From Thermosphaera sp. (lineage in GTDB: Archaea > Thermoproteota > Thermoprotei_A > Sulfolobales > Desulfurococcaceae): a stretch of 64,000 nt of DNA. Below, one piece after another: positions 48,503 through 60,555 of this stretch. Position 1 is the stretch's first letter. Every line of letters begins with the position of its first letter. The notes under the pieces were generated by a model. The model made no database searches. It had not been told where the DNA came from and was given only the letters and a program-made list of their open reading frames with translations. The position numbers and the translations under genes were made by a program. The stretch spans positions 930,290 to 994,289 of the forward strand of contig JAWBNK010000001.1 of the NCBI GenBank assembly GCA_038827615.1, written 5' to 3'.

Positions 48503-49375
48503 GTGAATGGTCAAAGCAGGATTTTACTAAGAAATATTTACTACCAAGGCGCGAAAGGCATTAGTAAGGGATTTGTCTTCATAGAAGGCGGGAAGATAAG
48601 CGATACTGGGGAAGAACCCCCGCCGGAGTACGAATTAAGCGATGTTGTATATGATTTCGAGTATAAAGCCTACGCAATTCATGGGTACGGGTTGCTGGTG
48701 AAAGGTGTAGAGTACCCTTTTAGAGGGCTTGTGAAACCGGACCTATCGGTTTACTCAAAGACCGAATTGGAGATAATAGCACTATACGCTCTAGCATCGT
48801 TCTATTCAATGGGGATCTCCCTCCCTATAGTAGATACCGAATTCCCAGATATCTTCAACAAGATTGCAAGAGAGCACAATCTCCAACTTGTTATCATGCA
48901 TGAGAAGGGGTCGATCCCACACTACAATGGTATCTTATACGTTGAAAAAGAGAACGATAAGCTCTATTTCAACGACAACTTCATAGGATTAAGAGAAAAC
49001 ATATTCTGTCGGCCAGAAAGCATTAGGGGAGATTGCATGATCCTAGATGCTAGGGAACTTGAATCCCCTTCCCCAGCTGCCATCTTCGCGTCAAGTAGGG
49101 ACGATCCCAAAATAATTTCCCTTAAACTTCGCGAGCCTTACAGGCTATTGGGTTTAGATGAGGGATTGATAAGTAAAGGGTCGATTTCGGATATTGCGAT
49201 CTACGACCTCAGACCTCCGTTAAAACAACAGCCATTAATAGGTGAAATACTATTTCGAACGCCTTTCAGAACAACACAACCGGACATCGTTTTAATTAAA
49301 GGAGAATTCGCAGTTGAATATGGAGACTTCATTCTTGCATCAATACCTGGAGGAATTTTCAAAGAGATCGAGTAA
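48503..49375 (+). CDS. Degenerate amidohydrolase-like protein lacking the metal site
   Basis: The ends look like the composite beta domain of dihydroorotase/imidazolonepropionase-type amidohydrolases: at the start ILLRNIYYQGAKGISKGFVFIEGGKISD, and at the end LISKGSISDIAIYDLRPP plus PDIVLIKGEFAVEYGD. The middle is only about 190 residues and lacks the HxH metal motif after strand 1; YAIHGYGL keeps one His at most. Length of 290 is well below the usual 380-450. It may be a non-catalytic derivative. The GTG start is divergent from the DUF2139 gene by about 118 bases. Confidence 0.6.
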   Translation: MNGQSRILLRNIYYQGAKGISKGFVFIEGGKISDTGEEPPPEYELSDVVYDFEYKAYAIHGYGLLVKGVEYPFRGLVKPDLSVYSKTELEIIALYALASFYSMGISLPIVDTEFPDIFNKIAREHNLQLVIMHEKGSIPHYNGILYVEKENDKLYFNDNFIGLRENIFCRPESIRGDCMILDARELESPSPAAIFASSRDDPKIISLKLREPYRLLGLDEGLISKGSISDIAIYDLRPPLKQQPLIGEILFRTPFRTTQPDIVLIKGEFAVEYGDFILASIPGGIFKEIE

Positions 49376-50532: not shown

Positions 50533-50580
50533 TAATGGTTTTTAATCACTAGTGAAAAATACTATATTGATGTGTTTCTA

Positions 50581-51024
50581 ATGAGTTTCGAGAAAACAGA
50601 TAAAGTGTTGAGATTTGGGAAAAGATTGATTAGTGTGATAAACTCAGTGATTATTTTAATGACGAGCTTGATTCTAGCTGTTACCCTTGGTATCATACTG
50701 AGAGATGTATACTTTCTCTTGACAGGTTTCAACTCTCTCGACTTTTCACTAATACAAAATATGGCTAATGAGGTAGTATTTCTATTTGTTTATGTCGAAA
50801 TCGTTAGAAGCGCTATCATCGCTAAGCAAAGGCCAGAGATATATGTGGTCGCACTCGCTGAGGTAGGCTTCATAGTGTCTATACGAGATGTTGTCAGGTC
50901 TTCGATAATGGGTGTTGAAGAGGACTTATTGCTTTCCTCTCTATCTGTTCTACTCTTCGCCATTGTGCTCTTAATAATGTATAAGTACGTAGTACCCTCG
51001 AGAGCTCCTCCAAAACCCGACTAG
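50581..51024 (+). CDS. PsiE-like membrane protein
   Basis: The protein of about 147 residues has four hydrophobic segments, with MANEVVFLFVYVEIVRSAIIAKQRPEIYVVALAEVGFIVSIRDVV resembling the phosphate-starvation-inducible PsiE family. Its function is unknown. ATG 50581 (MSFEKTDKVL) is preferred to GTG 50572, which lies close to a TATA-like AATACTATATTG. It is followed 11 bases later by a metallo-beta-lactamase gene. Confidence 0.7.
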   Translation: MSFEKTDKVLRFGKRLISVINSVIILMTSLILAVTLGIILRDVYFLLTGFNSLDFSLIQNMANEVVFLFVYVEIVRSAIIAKQRPEIYVVALAEVGFIVSIRDVVRSSIMGVEEDLLLSSLSVLLFAIVLLIMYKYVVPSRAPPKPD

Positions 51025-52053: not shown

Positions 52054-52689
52054 TTACTCCCTTCTCTCTAGGGAAAAAGGACACAGCCTCTTAAAGACGC
52101 AATAGCTACATTCCCACTCGTATTTCGGATGATCCGCGTCCTCCAAGAGAGTCTTGACGAGAGACTTTAGATTTATGCCTTCTCTCCTAACTAGGAATTC
52201 CACGATCTTTTCGGGGGTGATGTAAACGAGTGTTCCGTAATCGTAATTTAAAATCTCGAGATAAATTTTCAACTGACTAACGTGATGCTCCTTTGGAACA
52301 TCCTGAGCTGAACGCGCTGTTTTAATCTCGACGACCAGACCCTCATCCCTCTTCAAAGCATCGACCCTGCCCCTTAACGTATATTTTTCACCGTCAACGT
52401 CGATTTCAGCGGAAATCTCCACCTCCGTGTTAAAACCTTTCTCCATCAAGAGTGAAGCAATGCCGGCGTGAACAAGATTTCCGAGCACTGCTGATGGTTC
52501 AAACTTTATGGTCAACTCTGGATACATCCTTCTGAAAAAATATTTGCGAGTACATCCCACTAAGTCTGTAACGTAGATCAAGTGTGGATCTTTCAGCTCT
52601 TCGAGTCTATGAAGCTCTTCTTTGACGTATTTCTCGTAAAGTATTCGCGTTATTTTCTCGTCAGGCTTAACATAGACTGTCAATTTCAA
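52054..52689 (-). CDS. Cas4-like RecB-family nuclease with 4Fe-4S cluster
   Basis: The PD-(D/E)xK nuclease core is visible as the His in GNLVHAGI, Asp in LRGRVDAL and the ExK in VVEIKTARS. Four cysteines that would hold a 4Fe-4S cluster are C46 (VGCTRKYFF) and the C-terminal CSYC...C (about residues 194, 197, 203). This is the Cas4/Dna2 arrangement. There is no CRISPR array and no other cas gene here, so it is probably a stand-alone repair or processing nuclease. The TTG start overlaps the Nudix gene by 23 bases. Confidence 0.85.
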   Translation of the reverse strand: MKLTVYVKPDEKITRILYEKYVKEELHRLEELKDPHLIYVTDLVGCTRKYFFRRMYPELTIKFEPSAVLGNLVHAGIASLLMEKGFNTEVEISAEIDVDGEKYTLRGRVDALKRDEGLVVEIKTARSAQDVPKEHHVSQLKIYLEILNYDYGTLVYITPEKIVEFLVRREGINLKSLVKTLLEDADHPKYEWECSYCVFKRLCPFSLERRE

Positions 52690-53128
52690 ACACCATGTAT
52701 CTACAATAACTATGTAAATACGTGTCTCCCGTATTTATTCTTCTCAAAATATCAGAAGCCAATTCTCGAGTCGCTCTCCCAGTATTATCCGGAAGCCTAG
52801 TTAACTGGAAGAACCCAACCTCCTCTGCATCCGAACCAGGTCTTAAACTACCACCAATCCTTTGCAGTAGAAACTCTATAATTACATAGTGAGGTTGCTC
52901 TTTTACCCTCGGTATTAATTCAACGATTCCGTAAATGCCTGTGGGCTCTACACTGAGGCCTGTCTCCTCTAGAATTTCTCTTTTAACAGCATCAACGGCT
53001 GTTTCTCCATGCTTCTGCCTTCCGCCAGGTATGCTCCAAAAGCCTTTGCATGGATGGTTCTTTCTTTTTACGAGAAGAATGGACGAGTCTTCGATCAATA
53101 TGCCTCCAACGGAGGGTATAGGAATCAT
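52667..53128 (-). CDS. Nudix hydrolase
   Basis: The Nudix box is exact: GGRQKHGETAVDAVKREI followed by LEETGL, fitting Gx5Ex7REUxEExGU. The 153-residue protein (VGGILIEDSSILLVKRKNHP at the start) resembles small (d)NTP or ADP-ribose hydrolases; substrate unknown. The ATG overlaps the CYTH stop as ATGA, with AGGAGG upstream, and the gene runs into the Cas4-like start. Confidence 0.9.
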   Translation of the reverse strand: MIPIPSVGGILIEDSSILLVKRKNHPCKGFWSIPGGRQKHGETAVDAVKREILEETGLSVEPTGIYGIVELIPRVKEQPHYVIIEFLLQRIGGSLRPGSDAEEVGFFQLTRLPDNTGRATRELASDILRRINTGDTYLHSYCRYMVFEIDSLC

Positions 53129-53676
53129 TTTCCTCCTACCACGTTCTTCAGGTACAATTCTAGATATGTCTCCTCGACTATTGAAAACTTTCTCGAATAC
53201 TTCTCGATGAGTCTTTTAAAATCCAGAACTGCGTCATCCTTTTTCATTTCAATCTCAAAGAAAACGCCCAGCGGCTCGAAGAAATCTATGGAGGCTTCCA
53301 TACCCTCCTTCGCGAGAATCAATCTCTTCTTACTAAGCCTCCACTGAATTGTGAACCCAATTTTCCTTAACAATGCAAGTGCTCGAGAGTAATCATCGGG
53401 GTCAAGTCTCAACTCAATTTCTTCACGAGCCTTAACTCCGTCTTCAAAACCTTTAATCCGGGGACCTTTATACGTCAGCCTTAGGCTTGATCCTTCAGTG
53501 CATGTTCTCTTTCTAAGTCTCAACGCCTGATCGCTTGTCGAGAACACGTGGCCCTCCTTATCAAAATAGATGTCCTCTTCATCACAAAAAGTCTTCACGG
53601 AGAAGCCGTCTTCAATGAGCATTTTCTTCAAATCCTGAGGATCGATCGAAACCCTAAACTTGACTTCCCTCTCCAA
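53125..53676 (-). CDS. CYTH-domain protein (adenylate cyclase IV / thiamine-triphosphatase-like)
   Basis: The N-terminal EREVKFRV is the ExExK motif of the CYTH superfamily, and alternating basic and acidic strands follow (RLRKRTC...LRLTYKGPR, AREEIELRL, KKRLILA, ASIDFFEPLGVFFEIEM). CYTH tunnels bind triphosphates. Length is 183 residues. The TTG start overlaps the HDAC-like gene by 23 bases. In archaea the activity may be inorganic or nucleoside triphosphatase rather than cyclase; the sequence does not decide. Confidence 0.85.
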   Translation of the reverse strand: MEREVKFRVSIDPQDLKKMLIEDGFSVKTFCDEEDIYFDKEGHVFSTSDQALRLRKRTCTEGSSLRLTYKGPRIKGFEDGVKAREEIELRLDPDDYSRALALLRKIGFTIQWRLSKKRLILAKEGMEASIDFFEPLGVFFEIEMKKDDAVLDFKRLIEKYSRKFSIVEETYLELYLKNVVGGK

Positions 53677-54718
53677 TCCCTATCCCTTTACCTAAAACCT
53701 TCTGCTTGATCTTTAAAATAGTTTTCTCATTGACGCTCAAATCCTCTCTAGAGTTCGCATGATACATGGATCTTGAGGGATTTATGCTGATCTTAAAACC
53801 CCATAATCCCTTGAGAAAAGATTCAACACCTTTAACCAAACCAACAGAATATCCCCCCTCCAACACTATCAAACTCCTACTCTTGAGGTCTCTAATCAGT
53901 CTGCCGAGAACATAGTATGATGCCTCAGTTAATCTTAAATCGGCAAGACCATCATTGACGTAGGCGTCGAACCCTGCAGACACAACTAGTGCCTCCGGGT
54001 TATACTCCTCGAGAAGTTTTGAAACCATATTCAAGGTCTCAATGTAAACATCATCCCCTGTGAAAGGGCTGAAGACAAGGTTAGCTTTAAACCCATACCC
54101 CTCTCCCACTCCTATTTCAAACGGGTAGCCTGTATAAGGGTAAAGAGATCTGGGATGCTGATGGAGATCGATGTGGAGGATCTTATCGCGGTAGAAAATC
54201 TCCATGGTGCCGTTGCCGTGATGCACGTCGAAGTCTAATATCGCTATTCTACTAAACCCTCTATCTTTGAAGGCAAGAACAGCTGCTCCCGGATTATTCA
54301 GTAAGCAGAATCCTTGAGAAAAAGCCCTCATAGCCTTGCCAGCTATACCTGCATGATGACCCGGAGGTCTAGTAACGTAGAATACGATATCGTGGAGCTT
54401 GCTGGCTAAACCATAGCATGAACCAAAAGTTCTGTATGCCAGCTCTAATGAGTCATGGGCCAAATAAGTGTCTTCATCTATTATCGAGTACCTATTCCTG
54501 GACAACCTCTCCAAGTACTCTATGTATCCTTTGGCATGTATTCTGAAGGCAATTCTTCTGGCCTCTTCTAAGTTGACTTCTGGCCTCGAGTACTCGAAGT
54601 CAACTCGTATTTTTCTCAACAGCTCAATTATCTTTGCTACTCTCGCCGGGTTCTCCGGGTGTTTTTCAAGCGGTATATGCTTGTTTAACGATTCATTTTC
54701 GACAATGATTCTGACCAA
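53654..54718 (-). CDS. Histone-deacetylase-family protein (acetoin utilisation/acetylpolyamine type)
   Basis: The class II HDAC-like fold shows VTRPPGHHAGIAGKAMRAFSQGFCLLNN, the zinc-binding ILDFDVHHGNGTMEIFY and AGFDAYVNDGLADL with its second Asp ligand. It would remove acetyl groups from protein lysines (Alba and others) or polyamines. Length 354 is standard. TTG start. It is the first gene of a four-gene overlapping set with CYTH, Nudix and the Cas4-like nuclease. Confidence 0.88.
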   Translation of the reverse strand: MVRIIVENESLNKHIPLEKHPENPARVAKIIELLRKIRVDFEYSRPEVNLEEARRIAFRIHAKGYIEYLERLSRNRYSIIDEDTYLAHDSLELAYRTFGSCYGLASKLHDIVFYVTRPPGHHAGIAGKAMRAFSQGFCLLNNPGAAVLAFKDRGFSRIAILDFDVHHGNGTMEIFYRDKILHIDLHQHPRSLYPYTGYPFEIGVGEGYGFKANLVFSPFTGDDVYIETLNMVSKLLEEYNPEALVVSAGFDAYVNDGLADLRLTEASYYVLGRLIRDLKSRSLIVLEGGYSVGLVKGVESFLKGLWGFKISINPSRSMYHANSREDLSVNEKTILKIKQKVLGKGIGIGEGSQV

Positions 54719-54779: not shown

Positions 54780-55796
54780 CTAAGACGCGTAGTAAATGCC
54801 TTTATACAGGTGCTGGATTAATTCGTCCTTATTTATATTCTTAGGTAGTCTGACGATGGCTAGGTTGGGGTGGCCCGCTATGTCAAGTGCGATCCCTTCC
54901 CCTACAAGGAACTTAGCGATCCTGTACGCTCTACCATTAGAGGCTTTCAAGACGAGGAGCGAATAATCTCTATTGGTGTTTGCAAGCAATGCCACGGGCG
55001 ATTTGAGGATCGAAGAGACCTTCGATGCTAGGGCAGTTACCCCTCTCTTCTTCCAAGCATTTCTCGCGTCGACAAACCTGAGATCACCTATCTTAACAGC
55101 CGCAACAGCTAGTTCCACCGCCTTATCACTAATCTCCTTATCCCTTTGCTGAATACTCGCTTTCACCTTCTCCCAGAGCTTCTCATCGAGAGGCATGGGG
55201 ATCGGTGCCGGCGATGAAAGCCACTCAATGATCTTAACCCAAAGGTTCTCGTCCCTTTCGACAGTTAAAGCCTTAGAGAACATTTTCGTAAGCTCGAAGA
55301 GTTTTATGTAATTACTTGGAACCCTCTTGCCCATGTCCATGTACTCGACCACCTCTACGAAGCTTTTAAGTCTTTGATGAACAGAGATGCCCCTCGCCTG
55401 TAGCTCGCGATAGACAAGAGTTGAGGTAGGACTTTTATAGTCAACCAGAACCGTGTCGGCGACTTCTTCAATCTCCTTCAGTCTCTGAACACTCGTTATG
55501 TGATGGTCCACGTACATGATCTTTTTAACTCCAAAGTGTTCCTTAAGCATTCTACAAATGTTTTTTATAGTGTCATTGAATGGAAGGTCGAGAAAAACCA
55601 CCAGGTCATAACTCCCGTTGATGCTTGTTAGGAAATACTTTATTCTATCGGGGTCCACAGGCGTCTTGTCGACAACTCCTTGGCATTCCAACGGATATTT
55701 GCCTAATTTCTCTTGCGAGTAAGATATTAAGGCTGTCGCCACTATTCCGTCGGCATCCCAGTCCCCCGCGGCTAGAATCCTGCAGACTCTGGTCAT
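54780..55796 (-). CDS. DHH-family phosphoesterase
   Basis: The N-terminal AGDWDADGIVATALI (residues about 10-24) and MYVDHHITSVQRL near residue 95 are DHH-family motifs with metal-binding Asp and His intact. A C-terminal DHHA1-like part includes NGRAYRIAKFL and DIAGHPNLAIV. The class includes RecJ, GAN, Cdc45-like and oligonucleotide or cyclic-dinucleotide phosphodiesterases. Length of 338 suggests the smaller phosphoesterase or exonuclease type. The gene is divergent from nurA-herA, so a repair role is plausible but not shown. Confidence 0.82.
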   Translation of the reverse strand: MTRVCRILAAGDWDADGIVATALISYSQEKLGKYPLECQGVVDKTPVDPDRIKYFLTSINGSYDLVVFLDLPFNDTIKNICRMLKEHFGVKKIMYVDHHITSVQRLKEIEEVADTVLVDYKSPTSTLVYRELQARGISVHQRLKSFVEVVEYMDMGKRVPSNYIKLFELTKMFSKALTVERDENLWVKIIEWLSSPAPIPMPLDEKLWEKVKASIQQRDKEISDKAVELAVAAVKIGDLRFVDARNAWKKRGVTALASKVSSILKSPVALLANTNRDYSLLVLKASNGRAYRIAKFLVGEGIALDIAGHPNLAIVRLPKNINKDELIQHLYKGIYYAS

Positions 55797-55876: not shown

Positions 55877-57055
55877 TTGATCGCGATCGAGGAGATAGCT
55901 GAAGTTATAAGAAAACATGCAACCCAGGTAGTGAAGCCTGTTGTCGACGAAGACTCCCGCAGACCAGCGGAGGTGCAGGAAAAAGAAAACAACGTTAGGC
56001 TCCTCGTTGAGCCCGCGAAAGCATTGAAACGGTTCGAAAAAGCATCAGAGGTAAAACCCTACTTCAACCTCTACGCTCTAGATAGTAGTTCGAGAGCGTT
56101 AGATACTCCATACTTCTTCATAGCAATAGCCACGGGGACTTTAGTCAACAGGTTTACAGGGAAAACCATTGACTGCCCACCCGTATCCCTTCTTCAGGGA
56201 AGTCTTAAGGATTCATGTAGGTTTCTATCAGTCATTCCTAATTTCGAATCCAGCGTAGAATTCGAAGATAGATTCTCCAATTTATTGTTCACGAAAAACA
56301 TCATCGGTGAAAAATACGATCACTCATACAACAAATACGTCTTGCTTGATGAGACACGATTGCTCGTCGAATCCCATCTATTGATTCAAGGTATGAGCAA
56401 GGGTCTTCTCGACGAATCTATCATCCTTATTGATGGCCCATTGATTTATCCTTCATTCTTTGAGTCATCGATATCAGGCCACACATCGAGGATTGACTCG
56501 TACAAGGCTAGCATAGAAGCTATTAATGAAGAGAGAGTTTCCGTTTGGAAAGATCTCCGCAAGAGGCGTTCGCGAGTAGTAGGTATAGTGAAGAGGCTCT
56601 ACAGAAGCTACTACCTCAGCGCCTGCGACCCCCTCGAAATAGGCGTTTCAAACTTAAACGATGAGACTTATCTATCAGCAGTGTCAAGAAGGTTCTCGAT
56701 CGAAGAAGGGTTGAAACCGTATCTTCTCGGCCCCTTGAAAATTGAATCAAAATTAAAAGAAGTCAAAGTCGAGAGAATAGCGTGGTACCTGGGAATACCT
56801 AGGCGAAGCTTCAGCTCTAGAACGCCTTTGACAAACTACACTCATTATAGAGTTGAGACTGTGGCGGATAGTGTTCTTGATGAAACGGTTCTCTTGCCAG
56901 TAATATATGACAGCTTGTCCACAGGCACTATTCTACCAATATCCATAATGATCGCCGATTACCGTGCAAGAAAATTGTCAAGCATAATCTCACATTATCT
57001 TGTATACTCGATGGGATTAGGGGAGGCAAGCGTTTATCAGTATTTATCTATTTAA
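55877..57055 (+). CDS. nurA: NurA 5'-3' nuclease
   Basis: The NurA pattern is present: the metal-binding LYALDSSSRALDTPYFFIAIATGT near residue 65, IILIDGPLIYPSFFE near 190 and a C-terminal RRSFSSRTPLTNYTHYRVE segment. NurA works with HerA and Mre11-Rad50 in end resection of double-strand breaks. Length is 392, compared with about 340 in Sulfolobus. The TTG start is followed by herA after 34 bases. No mre11 or rad50 gene lies in the window. Confidence 0.87.
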   Translation: MIAIEEIAEVIRKHATQVVKPVVDEDSRRPAEVQEKENNVRLLVEPAKALKRFEKASEVKPYFNLYALDSSSRALDTPYFFIAIATGTLVNRFTGKTIDCPPVSLLQGSLKDSCRFLSVIPNFESSVEFEDRFSNLLFTKNIIGEKYDHSYNKYVLLDETRLLVESHLLIQGMSKGLLDESIILIDGPLIYPSFFESSISGHTSRIDSYKASIEAINEERVSVWKDLRKRRSRVVGIVKRLYRSYYLSACDPLEIGVSNLNDETYLSAVSRRFSIEEGLKPYLLGPLKIESKLKEVKVERIAWYLGIPRRSFSSRTPLTNYTHYRVETVADSVLDETVLLPVIYDSLSTGTILPISIMIADYRARKLSSIISHYLVYSMGLGEASVYQYLSI

Positions 57056-57089
57056 TGCGTTAGCTGATCAGATATCTAGGGGTTGGTCT

Positions 57090-59204
57090 TTGAATACGGA
57101 TTTTATAAAATCCCTTGAAGACAGGCTTTCGGCAGCCGTTGAAATCGCGAAAAAATACGGCAGGGTTATTGGATTCGTCTCTAGAACAAGTCCCTCTAGA
57201 ATAGATGAGGAAGGAGGTTTCGTCTATTTTGAGGTAGACCCCTTGGTCTACTTTAATGACTTCGCCGATATAGCTTCGGCCGGGAGTTATCTTGCGGTTG
57301 TTGATTTGAAAACCCTTCATTTAGTCAGCTTGAAGATAATTGCTGTGGAGAGACGGGACATTTTAGCAGAGTTAGACATGCCGGAGATGTACGTTTCAGT
57401 ACCGACCACAGAGGTCTCTGGACTGCTAACTAAGACGAGAGTCAAGGCGAAGCCTCTACTATCCTATGATGTGACCCGTGATCTCGTGGTGTCAGCGGAC
57501 TATGTCATAGAGCCTCAAAGCCCTGTTATAAAGTTGGAGAATACCCAGGCCATTCAGAAGGTGCTCGGACTTCCGGTTAAGGGCGTGTTCCTTGGTCACG
57601 TTACCGTGGGAGATAAAGTCCTGTTTGATGGAAACGCGGAACTCTACCTTCCCTTGAAGGCCTTTTACCAACACATTCTACTCATAGGGACAACGGGTAG
57701 CGGGAAAACCACATTGATCAAGAACATGGTGTCATCGTTAACGTCGAAGTTCTCAATCACGGAGGACGTGTCAGTAATCATAATAGATCCCAACCGCGAC
57801 TATTTAACTCTAAATTTGAGGCCTCCGTGGGTGTTCGATGAAACGCTTGTCTCAGGAGAAAAAAGGGTCTTGGAAAGACTTTCAGGGAGGGTGAACCATC
57901 CAAGAGGAATAATCATACTACTACCTATAACTCGATTCCTCGTAGACAGGCACATCGAGACCGGTAGTACGTGGGCTAAGACTCTTAAAAACATATCAAT
58001 AGACTACATCAGCCAAATCTTGGAGCCCATTTCGAAAAAATTCGCTCTCCAATACGATGTTGAGGCCGCTGACGTCGTGGAACAGCCCAGCTCAGGAAAT
58101 CCCTTTAGGTTCGTCCGTGTAAAAGTAAGAGTCAAGTATTCAGGATTGGATGAAGAAATCGAATACATAATCGTGCCATACGGGTTCAGGTTCACTGATT
58201 TCACGCCCAGGGAGTTTATTTCGCTAAACCCATATTTCACTAGACAAGCCAAGGATTCTTTGACTAGACTTTTGAGATACATGAATGATATGAGATTAAA
58301 TATCGAGACAGTCTACGACATATACGATGCGTTGCGAGATGCCAGGTTGAGGTTAGATGAAAAACAGAGAGCCCCAAGGGGAATCGTCCTGGATCCCAAC
58401 AAGGAATACCTAGTAGACCTTGTAAGGGAGATAGCGATTCACAAGAGCACTCTTGAAAACATTCTTAGGCAAGTGGGTTCTATAATAGATACAGGTCTCT
58501 TCGACATAACAATCAGCACCCAGGGCGAGGACAAGTATCTGAGGGAGCCTCCACTAGACCTCCTCCTTGAGAAACATTTCGAATGGTTCAATGGGTACCC
58601 TATAGTAGTAGACTTGGAGCATCCGCTCGAATATTCCCTAGCAGACCCCGAGAAAGTCCTGAGCATTATAGCCTTTAGAATTTTGAACAAAATATTCGAA
58701 TGGAAGATCCAGCAGGGCAGAAGAAAATTGGAGTCAAACCCCGTCGTAATAATAATAGATGAAGCGCACAGGTTTTTCCCCAGTAAATCAGGTATTGAAG
58801 ACTATATTGAACACGTATCAGCAATGATAGACAGGATTGCTAGGCTCGGAAGGGCTAGGAGGCTAGGATTAATATTTAGTACTCACAGCCCCAAAGACGT
58901 TCATGACATAATACTCCAACTTGCCAATACGAAGGTTATCTTGAGAACTGATAAAAGCCACGTAAATCTTTTAGACATTCCATTAGAGTATCGGGAATTA
59001 ATTATGAAAATGAGTGACAGAGTTGCCGTCTTGAAAAGCCATGCGCTAAGGCTTGGATACGTTACTTTCAGAACTCCGCCGCCGCTCGCCGGACACTACG
59101 ACCTTTCAGCTCTAGAGTCCACTCCTGCCCAAGGATCTCCTAACGTGAACTATTCGCTGAACAACAGTTATGAAAGAGAGAACGAGAGCAGTGTAAAGCA
59201 ATAG
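57090..59204 (+). CDS. herA: HerA bipolar DNA helicase/translocase
   Basis: An N-terminal HAS-barrel-like region (about 1-150) precedes the ATPase core with Walker A LLIGTTGSGKTTLIKN near residue 200 and Walker B PVVIIIDEAHRFFPS near 552. SRLGLIFSTHSPKDVHDIILQLANTKVILR marks the HerA/FtsK group. The protein is 704 residues long, about 200 more than Sulfolobus HerA; the extra length is between the Walker motifs. The hydrophilic tail (SLNNSYERENESS) overlaps a convergent gene. TTG 57090 follows AGGGG. Confidence 0.88.
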   Translation: MNTDFIKSLEDRLSAAVEIAKKYGRVIGFVSRTSPSRIDEEGGFVYFEVDPLVYFNDFADIASAGSYLAVVDLKTLHLVSLKIIAVERRDILAELDMPEMYVSVPTTEVSGLLTKTRVKAKPLLSYDVTRDLVVSADYVIEPQSPVIKLENTQAIQKVLGLPVKGVFLGHVTVGDKVLFDGNAELYLPLKAFYQHILLIGTTGSGKTTLIKNMVSSLTSKFSITEDVSVIIIDPNRDYLTLNLRPPWVFDETLVSGEKRVLERLSGRVNHPRGIIILLPITRFLVDRHIETGSTWAKTLKNISIDYISQILEPISKKFALQYDVEAADVVEQPSSGNPFRFVRVKVRVKYSGLDEEIEYIIVPYGFRFTDFTPREFISLNPYFTRQAKDSLTRLLRYMNDMRLNIETVYDIYDALRDARLRLDEKQRAPRGIVLDPNKEYLVDLVREIAIHKSTLENILRQVGSIIDTGLFDITISTQGEDKYLREPPLDLLLEKHFEWFNGYPIVVDLEHPLEYSLADPEKVLSIIAFRILNKIFEWKIQQGRRKLESNPVVIIIDEAHRFFPSKSGIEDYIEHVSAMIDRIARLGRARRLGLIFSTHSPKDVHDIILQLANTKVILRTDKSHVNLLDIPLEYRELIMKMSDRVAVLKSHALRLGYVTFRTPPPLAGHYDLSALESTPAQGSPNVNYSLNNSYERENESSVKQ

Positions 59205-59711
59205 TAAAGCGATGCTTCTGCTCCAATTATTAATTATTAGGATAGCGGTTATCAACAAAATCCTCTCGGCTCTCTCCACAAGCCCCACCCCTTCTATCCT
59301 TAATCCTAGAGACTCAGCTTTCGCTCTAACGTAACTCGTCAGGAAGGCCAGTGACATTAGTCCGAAAATAAGATATTCATTAAACCCTAAGATGGAGAGA
59401 GATGCGATAATGAGAAAATCGTTCACTCTATCAATGGTTGAGTCAAGAAAGCTTCCAAAAACAGACGCTTTACCGCATGCTCTCGCGACTGCCCCGTCAA
59501 GAGCATCGAGGAAGCCTGAGAATGCGATGGATAGAATGAAAATCCAAACGCTACCAAGAAGTTTAAACAAAAACAATCCTACCAGTAAGATGAAACTTGA
59601 AGAAATAGTTAACAAGTTAGGGTGAACTCCAAGGCTACACAATGGTTTAGCGATGAGCCTCATTACTCCTTCTATTTTTCTTCGAATTTTACTCAACAAC
59701 GCATTTCTCAC
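59112..59711 (-). CDS. CDP-alcohol phosphatidyltransferase, archaetidylinositol-phosphate-synthase-like
   Basis: The CDP-alcohol transferase motif D-x2-DG-x2-AR-x8-G-x3-D-x3-D is visible as DALDGAVARACGKASVFGSFLDSTIDRVND. About six membrane helices span the 199 residues. In archaea these enzymes attach polar head groups such as inositol phosphate to CDP-archaeol. Start 59711 overlaps the endonuclease-IV-like gene by 23 bases. Its last 93 bases overlap the herA coding end on the other strand. Confidence 0.87.
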   Translation of the reverse strand: MRNALLSKIRRKIEGVMRLIAKPLCSLGVHPNLLTISSSFILLVGLFLFKLLGSVWIFILSIAFSGFLDALDGAVARACGKASVFGSFLDSTIDRVNDFLIIASLSILGFNEYLIFGLMSLAFLTSYVRAKAESLGLRIEGVGLVERAERILLITAILIINNWSRSIALLLLYTALVLSFITVVQRIVHVRRSLGRSGL

Positions 59712-60555
59712 CGCATACTTCCAGACATAGGTTTTTCATTCTTAAAGCATCTTGCTCTAGTATTGGGCTCTCACTGATTATAACCGAGTCTACGCCCGCG
59801 TCGCACAGACCTTTGCACACGATCCTAAAATCTGGTCCATATTTTTCTTCATCCAAGGTGTGATGCTCTCTCTCCCCTCCCCTTCCATAAGCTATCTTGG
59901 AAAAGTGAACATGCAATGGTTTTAATGCTTCAGACCCTAGCGAGGATTCTATTTTCTCAATTATCTTCAACACGTCATCTATTTTTGAAATGAGTCTCCC
60001 AGAAGTTCTAGCGTACAAGTGAGCGAAATCCACCACGGGACGCACTCCCTCGATACTTTGAGCGATCAGTATTGTTTCATCAAGATCCCCCACCTGAGAA
60101 GTCCTCCCAGTGGTTTCGGGACCGAGCCAGACTTCGCGCGCCCCTATTTGAGCCTTGTACTCCGCAACATGCTTAAGGTTTTCAATTACTTTTTTAACAG
60201 CCTCTCTCTTAGAGGGAGCCTCCTTATAGTATCCTGGATGGAAAACCACCACATAAGCATTCATCCAGTAAGCTGCCGTTACAGATTCTTTTAGCCTTTG
60301 TATGCTTGCCTCGACGGTGGATTTTCTACCCGCCAGGTTTATAAAGTATGGGGCATGAAGGCTCAACAAGATGTTATTAAGTCTAGCCTCTTCTCCGAAA
60401 GACCGAGCCTTCTCCTCCTTAATATTGACTCCGCGAACAGCCTCATACTCCATGCAATTCAAACCCATTTCTCGGAGAAACGACGGGGCTTTAAGCAAAT
60501 CACTTGACTTCATCGTTATCGGTTTTCCCGCAGGACCAAAGCGGAAATGAGGCAC
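59689..60555 (-). CDS. Endonuclease IV / AP-endonuclease-2-family TIM-barrel protein
   Basis: The TIM-barrel protein begins FRFGPAGKPITMKSSDLLKAP and has metal-ligand-like motifs SLHAPYFINLAGR, VVFHPGYY, LGPETTGRTSQVGDL, VVDFAHLYAR and LHVHFSKIAYG, in the order expected for endonuclease IV. It would cleave abasic sites in DNA, although some archaeal relatives are sugar isomerases. Length 288 fits. Start GTG 60555 is divergent from a Nudix gene. Confidence 0.8.
   Translation of the reverse strand: MPHFRFGPAGKPITMKSSDLLKAPSFLREMGLNCMEYEAVRGVNIKEEKARSFGEEARLNNILLSLHAPYFINLAGRKSTVEASIQRLKESVTAAYWMNAYVVVFHPGYYKEAPSKREAVKKVIENLKHVAEYKAQIGAREVWLGPETTGRTSQVGDLDETILIAQSIEGVRPVVDFAHLYARTSGRLISKIDDVLKIIEKIESSLGSEALKPLHVHFSKIAYGRGGEREHHTLDEEKYGPDFRIVCKGLCDAGVDSVIISESPILEQDALRMKNLCLEVCGEKCVVE

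Follow-up and report, generated by a model that had tools for sequence, protein, structure and literature searches.

An HDAC-CYTH-(Nudix)-Cas4 operon conserved behind a RecJ-like DHH gene in Thermosphaera sp. and its family

We examined four overlapping genes in a 64,000-nucleotide stretch of DNA from Thermosphaera sp. (assembly GCA_038827615.1, contig JAWBNK010000001.1, positions 930,290 to 994,289), which is called the window here and whose first letter is position 1. All four lie on the minus strand in the order HDAC, CYTH, Nudix and Cas4-like. The first encodes an HDAC-superfamily (class II-like) deacetylase of 354 amino acids (aa) (53654..54718; Pfam Hist_deacetyl, 1e-63) and is followed by genes for a 183-aa CYTH/triphosphate tunnel metalloenzyme with a TTG start (53125..53676; Pfam CYTH, 4.2e-17), a 153-aa Nudix hydrolase (52667..53128; Pfam NUDIX, 2.7e-17) and a 211-aa solo-Cas4 nuclease of the SSO0001 type (52054..52689; PDB 4ic1, 1.1e-40). 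Successive genes overlap by 23, 4 (ATGA) and 23 bp, confirming an earlier note on this DNA that had described overlaps of 4 to 23 bases, with the genes, order and strand as it gave them. Alignments showed that all four proteins retain their catalytic residues. Overlap is ordinary in the window, where 21 of the 46 co-directional neighbors overlap and another run reaches six genes, counts that come from a greedy longest-open-reading-frame gene set and are therefore upper bounds. It is the conservation across the family, rather than the overlap, that exceeds chance. Promoter scans found sigma-70 and TATA patterns near chance level.

Conservation was assessed in a Desulfurococcaceae-level family of 40 genomes, including that of the window, and 40 loci were taken from the 39 others, one of which gave two. 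A Cas4 match (E <= 0.001) was present in all 40 genomes, a few of the matches being fragments or weak and probably a different Cas4. Thirty-seven loci extended 785 bp or more beyond Cas4 on its upstream side, allowing the CYTH-Cas4 link to be tested; CYTH was directly upstream on the same strand in 33 of these with the window protein as query and in 34 with family queries, which added L158 (the same as L226). The three misses were L175 and L176, from the two genomes of genus g40, and L182, in which Cas4 is only 40% identical. Where CYTH-Cas4 loci reached 1.4 kb or more upstream, HDAC came next in 30 of 31, the miss being L161, in which an S-adenosylmethionine (SAM) hydrolase gene stands there instead, and a same-strand DHH gene was present in 26 of the 27 loci reaching far enough (miss, L172). 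A stricter count, using loci with 2.5 kb on both sides and requiring genes to be within 1 kb in the same relative orientation, gave 25/25 for both HDAC-CYTH and CYTH-Cas4 and 24/25 for CYTH-HDAC when anchored on CYTH; DHH and HDAC were within 1 kb in 16/25. In family loci the operon immediately follows a RecJ-like DHH gene, and a NurA-HerA pair usually points away from it. The genes on the downstream side of Cas4, which encode the SAM hydrolase, a protein without a Pfam match, an aldehyde ferredoxin oxidoreductase (AOR) and a CTP-dependent riboflavin kinase (RFK), remain nearby in the family but with their order or orientation shuffled or inverted: SAM hydrolase and Cas4 were within 1 kb in 4/16, RFK-AOR was kept in 7/7 and AMH-AOR in 12/17. 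Within the stretch compared, to which this statement is confined, the core of the operon is broken least often.

Local variants of this arrangement were seen. In two genera, a Mem_trans permease gene lies between HDAC and CYTH (L235:8014-8919 and L180:9289-10200; Pfam was run for L235 only), and in two genera a convergent gene for a protein of about 316 aa lies directly downstream of Cas4 (L228:10612-11565 and L223:10633-11583), the L228 copy having no Pfam match.

A scan of 103 relatives with the Cas4 alignment yielded 80 loci that were kept, 26 of them sorted to family genomes and 54 to others; 44 of the latter reached 3 kb or more upstream, and some of the 54 may be second copies of Cas4 from genomes within the family. 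CYTH, HDAC, Nudix and NurA were found within the flanks of none of these 54 loci, among which there were one weak DHH match and one weak HerA match. Around the best-scoring 23 CYTH, 23 Cas4 and 23 HDAC genes from outside the family, the sole neighbor from the operon-plus-DHH set was a DHH gene by HDAC in genome G040. Because the cluster was absent from the non-family loci examined, the operon is considered a family trait. Strong matches to the individual genes were common in ten other families, whose 43 good genomes had them for Nudix in 42, CYTH in 39, HDAC in 38, Cas4 in 30 and DHH in 27. The earlier note had proposed tight linkage, with scattering of the genes in close relatives as its refuting test, and the genes proved to be together across the family and apart in the other families examined. 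Its view that the gene mix is odd for housekeeping is doubtful, since the same genes are so frequent in those 43 genomes. In one f11 genome (G050:C1:1044374-1050558), HDAC and Cas4 matches were found about 4.7 kb apart.

The Cas4 protein matched the family PDDEXK_1/Cas4 and the profile TIGR00372 (74.8 bits; cut-off, 65), and its nearest solved relative was SSO0001 of Sulfolobus solfataricus (PDB 4IC1). The two proteins are homologous over their full length and have the nuclease residues and a four-cysteine pattern in common: RecB/PD-(D/E)XK residues H74, D110, E121, K123, Q139 and Y143 and the iron-sulfur (FeS) cluster cysteines C46, C194, C197 and C203 were invariant in 18/18 sequences. SSO0001 contains an FeS cluster, with about four Fe per protein, and degrades single-stranded DNA as a 5'-3' exonuclease that depends on Mg or Mn (PMC3466216). 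The D99A substitution kills this activity, and the corresponding Asp in the GRxDA motif of the window protein is D110. The gene is encoded apart from cas1, whose sole match lies on this contig at a distance of about 838 kb (cas2 was not searched). The nuclease is a solo-Cas4 of the SSO0001 type, independent of CRISPR. Solo-Cas4 is described in the relevant part of PMC5704561 as found in many archaea, mostly vertical in its evolution and uncharacterized in function. The window gene differs from that of SSO0001 in that it ends an HDAC-CYTH-(Nudix) operon, whereas Cas4 genes of other families have other neighbors. Like SSO0001 in vitro, the protein may use its RecB-type fold with FeS cluster to trim single-stranded 5' ends.

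For the deacetylase, the best PDB relatives were HDAC6 structures (1.1e-56). The residue set of the HDAC superfamily (HH dyad, D-x-H, D and GGY tyrosine) is complete, with H121, H122, D164, H166, D251 and Y290 invariant in 17/17 family members; we take H121 and H122 to be the HH dyad, D164, H166 and D251 the zinc ligands and Y290 the GGY tyrosine. L258, which is nearly invariant in the family, aligns with the Leu of HDAC6 at the gatekeeper position. In polyamine deacetylases of the HDAC10 type this Leu is replaced by a gatekeeper Glu, and bacterial acetylpolyamine enzymes use another residue there. The enzyme would remove acyl groups, probably from lysines.

The CYTH protein scored 72.8 bits with TIGR00318 (cut-off, 57.95), and its closest solved relative was SaTTM (Saci_0718, PDB 7NS8), matched at an E-value of only 1.1e-11. 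With a start at 53676, ExExK, the hallmark motif, falls at residues 2 to 6, which supports this start. We compared the protein with the motif criteria for triphosphatases and cyclases in section 10 of PMC8233210. Its triphosphatase signature comprises A51-L-R53-L-R55 (small residue-xRxR) and E141-I-E143 (ExE), with no HF. The class IV adenylyl cyclase motif HFxxxxExExK is lacking, as the protein starts at ExExK with no preceding HF, and so are the cyclase substitutions (a replacement of the first Arg of RxR, and Ala in place of the second Glu of ExE), R53 and E143 being invariant in 15/15. The CYTH protein was therefore classed as a triphosphatase, having every signature published for triphosphatases and no cyclase signature, and the NCBIfam label of TIGR00318, "class IV adenylate cyclase" (CyaB), is probably wrong for it on the strength of these motifs. 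SaTTM likewise has ExExK, AxRxR and ExE and lacks HF; its genomic partners differ. In the part of PMC8233210 devoted to it, SaTTM is a triphosphatase that prefers inorganic triphosphate (PPPi) and makes no cyclic nucleotides. The window enzyme would similarly hydrolyze inorganic triphosphate or similar triphosphates.

A complete Nudix box is present at G36-L58 of the Nudix protein, with G36, E42, R50, E51, E54 and E55 invariant in 13/13; the consensus of the box is GX5EX7REUXEEXGU. Such an enzyme may remove unwanted nucleoside diphosphate derivatives. Nudix is the variable member of the operon, being within it in 18 of the 40 genomes, outside it as a single strong match in 16 and without a strong match in 6. 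Only G068, which also shows two close Cas4 copies, has two strong Nudix genes. One such Nudix gene per genome is therefore usual, inside or outside the operon, which suggests a housekeeping job that is not tied to the operon. In a phylogenetic tree, the operon Nudix of the window genus grouped with Nudix of family f11 (98-99% bootstrap), apart from other operon Nudix. With groups chosen after the tree had been seen, a single clade for all 18 operon Nudix gave a p-AU of 0.096 with 46 rows and 0.022 with 58 rows (two long-branched rows dropped and 14 family rows added), and a clade of the window genus plus the main 13 operon Nudix was not rejected (p-AU 0.203; 58 rows). We do not claim a repeated recruitment of different Nudix genes into one slot.

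The gene 61 bp upstream of HDAC (54780..55796, minus strand) encodes a RecJ-like DHH-DHHA1 phosphoesterase of 338 aa. A search of the PDB with its sequence gave no useful match. Its AlphaFold model (pLDDT 89.4) matched RecJ best (Z 22.3, root mean square deviation 3.9, 305 residues), and Cdc45, PAP-phosphatase and nanoRNase-type enzymes were also high among the structural matches, the last two types having the fold in common with it. D12, D14, D16, D70, D97, H98, H99 and H309 were invariant in 20/20. The protein resembles RecJ and the archaeal RecJ-like DHH proteins found with HerA-NurA in its DHH-DHHA1 fold, its metal ligands and its place adjoining NurA-HerA, but it is small, and since residues 2 to 338 are used by the match to the RecJ core, it is too short for the OB-fold and further C-terminal domains of bacterial RecJ. 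Judged from the model, the enzyme is likely a nuclease, and other activities are possible too. The adjoining genes, on the plus strand and divergent from DHH, encode a NurA-family nuclease paralogue (55877..57055; Pfam NurA, 1.9e-08) and its partner, a HerA-like ATPase (57090..59204; DUF87/HerA matches). NurA and HerA were adjacent in 12/12 testable family loci, and NurA was divergent in 20 family loci and absent there in three genomes of genus g2. The window pair (55877-59204) scores far below the best of the three NurA of its genome. At the edge of the conserved neighborhood lies a gene for an AP-endonuclease-2-type TIM barrel, endonuclease IV-like (59689..60555, minus strand; Pfam AP_endonuc_2, 1.5e-25), which several genera retain close to HerA or DHH. 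Stimulation of DrRecJ by DrHerA and its modulation by DrNurA in Deinococcus, as set out in the part of PMC4663267 on these proteins, may by analogy serve as a precedent for a RecJ-like enzyme acting with HerA-NurA.

Other genes also occur in this neighborhood. Between NurA and DHH, several genera have a pair of membrane-protein-like open reading frames (about 240-256 and 157-173 aa) that is co-directional with DHH and absent in the window (L219:4361-5543, L223:3366-4655 and L148:11874-13163). In genus g35, DHH and HDAC are separated by a gene with a PAPS-reductase domain that is read from the other strand (L219:6569-7876).

Taken together, these results incline us, by a modest measure, to a lineage-specific housekeeping operon joined to a DNA-end-processing neighborhood. 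The operon would have been assembled, in the family's ancestor or earlier, out of genes that are widespread in the rest of the order without being linked there, with co-expression through overlapping genes as the likely link among upkeep enzymes. Cas4 would work alongside the RecJ-like DHH enzyme and NurA-HerA to make or clear single-stranded ends: DHH and Cas4 would shorten them and NurA-HerA would resect, with the AP-endonuclease-like TIM barrel at the island edge. That the nuclease part serves DNA-end processing is somewhat favored, and any part played there by HDAC, CYTH and Nudix would be a guess. We consider a single pathway for all four enzymes improbable. Still more doubtful is a full genome-maintenance unit, in which solo-Cas4, the RecJ-like enzyme and the NurA-HerA paralogue would process DNA ends jointly, the deacetylase would regulate this machinery and CYTH and Nudix would clear triphosphate and damaged-nucleotide by-products; if true, it would be the natural non-CRISPR job of solo-Cas4. 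Several observations weigh against the joined housekeeping operon. The Cas4 of genus g40 (L175 and L176) stands without the other operon genes, the three genomes of genus g2 have no NurA-HerA at this locus, and the window NurA is one of three paralogues (the others being at G000 C1:772219 and C2:17745). Outside the family, the presence of the five genes was uncorrelated in the 43 good genomes (Fisher p of 0.139 or more for every pair); family f11 has Cas4 (4/5), CYTH and HDAC without DHH, and family f6 has DHH without Cas4. This lack of correlation speaks against an obligate common pathway and for genes that came together in a single lineage. Gene order is well conserved in the family in general, so the linkage may mean little. 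These last points also suit a hitchhiking operon, in which unrelated genes sit under one promoter in a small, slowly rearranging genome, share no pathway and neighbor repair nucleases by accident. Retention of RFK-AOR and AMH-AOR, the frequency of overlap in the window and the different partners of CYTH and Cas4 in other families, where CYTH adjoins SAM hydrolase, NMN-adenylyltransferase-like and RNA-methyltransferase-like genes, all agree with it, but the HDAC-CYTH and CYTH-Cas4 links are kept where the SAM hydrolase-Cas4 and DHH-HDAC links break, and they persist even though the family CYTH proteins are merely 30-38% identical to that of the window. We consider hitchhiking a serious possibility that nevertheless falls short of an even chance.

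We also weighed defense, because the earlier note had offered a repair or defense module, possibly linked to a signal. The repair part is plausible, because the operon follows a RecJ-like DHH gene and has NurA-HerA and an AP-endonuclease-like gene as neighbors. In a defense module, Cas4 and the nucleotide enzymes would counter viruses or plasmids, perhaps by way of a nucleotide signal, and several facts point that way: PADLOC profiles match Cas4 and the Nudix protein (PDC-S07, 2.4e-12), solo-Cas4 defense roles are suggested for some DPANN archaea in the part of PMC5704561 on them, and the part of PMC3396285 on Pyrobaculum describes nurA-csm6-herA clusters. Those clusters resemble the window in having a crenarchaeal NurA-HerA paralogue pair beside other nucleic-acid enzyme genes; they differ in adjoining CRISPR arrays and carrying csm6, whereas the window has no repeats near and no gene between NurA and HerA (csm6 was not searched). 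Unlike a defense system, the cluster is family-wide rather than patchy, occurring in nearly every family genome that could be judged, and cas1, found in 15/40 family genomes (9/23 good ones), does not track it. CYTH lacks cyclase motifs, and no defense genes were noticed beside the cluster in the several loci whose neighbors were read, a reading that was not a systematic search. The defense module was rejected on its distribution, on cas1 and on CYTH, and cyclic-nucleotide signaling on the CYTH signatures, so neither defense nor signaling is supported; defense is very improbable, and we consider it quite likely that the operon is housekeeping rather than defense. Adaptation in trans, with Cas4 trimming prespacers for a remote cas1-cas2, has in its favor the Cas4 family membership and the presence of cas1 in this genome, but 25/40 family genomes have a Cas4 match and no cas1 match, some of these genomes being incomplete, and we give it scarcely any credence. 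A CRISPR link was rejected on the distance and distribution of cas1. No direct repeat of at least 20 bp was found in 44-64 kb of the window, which, together with the remoteness of the sole cas1 match, agrees with the earlier note that there is no CRISPR nearby.

No paper treating HDAC, CYTH and Cas4 together was found in the part of the open-access literature that was searched, which does not show that the operon is unpublished, and the open-access NurA/HerA/Cas4/DHH literature, judged by titles and abstract starts, gave no description of the cluster. These are ordinary enzymes in a conserved family-specific operon, a description of which was not found in the open-access literature searched. 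The stable family-wide context gives solo-Cas4 concrete, testable partners in the RecJ-like enzyme, NurA-HerA, the triphosphatase and the deacetylase, and the motif comparison corrects the "adenylate cyclase" annotation that the window CYTH protein is likely to carry. In families f2, f10 and f11, CYTH genes (L010, L013, L021, L022, L024, L027 and L030) lie beside SAM hydrolase genes and beside genes that were named NMN-adenylyltransferase-like and RNA-methyltransferase-like by eye from their sequences. The window proteins encoded at 50572-51024 and 48503-49375 have no Pfam match, and relatives of the latter are near SAM hydrolase in many family members.

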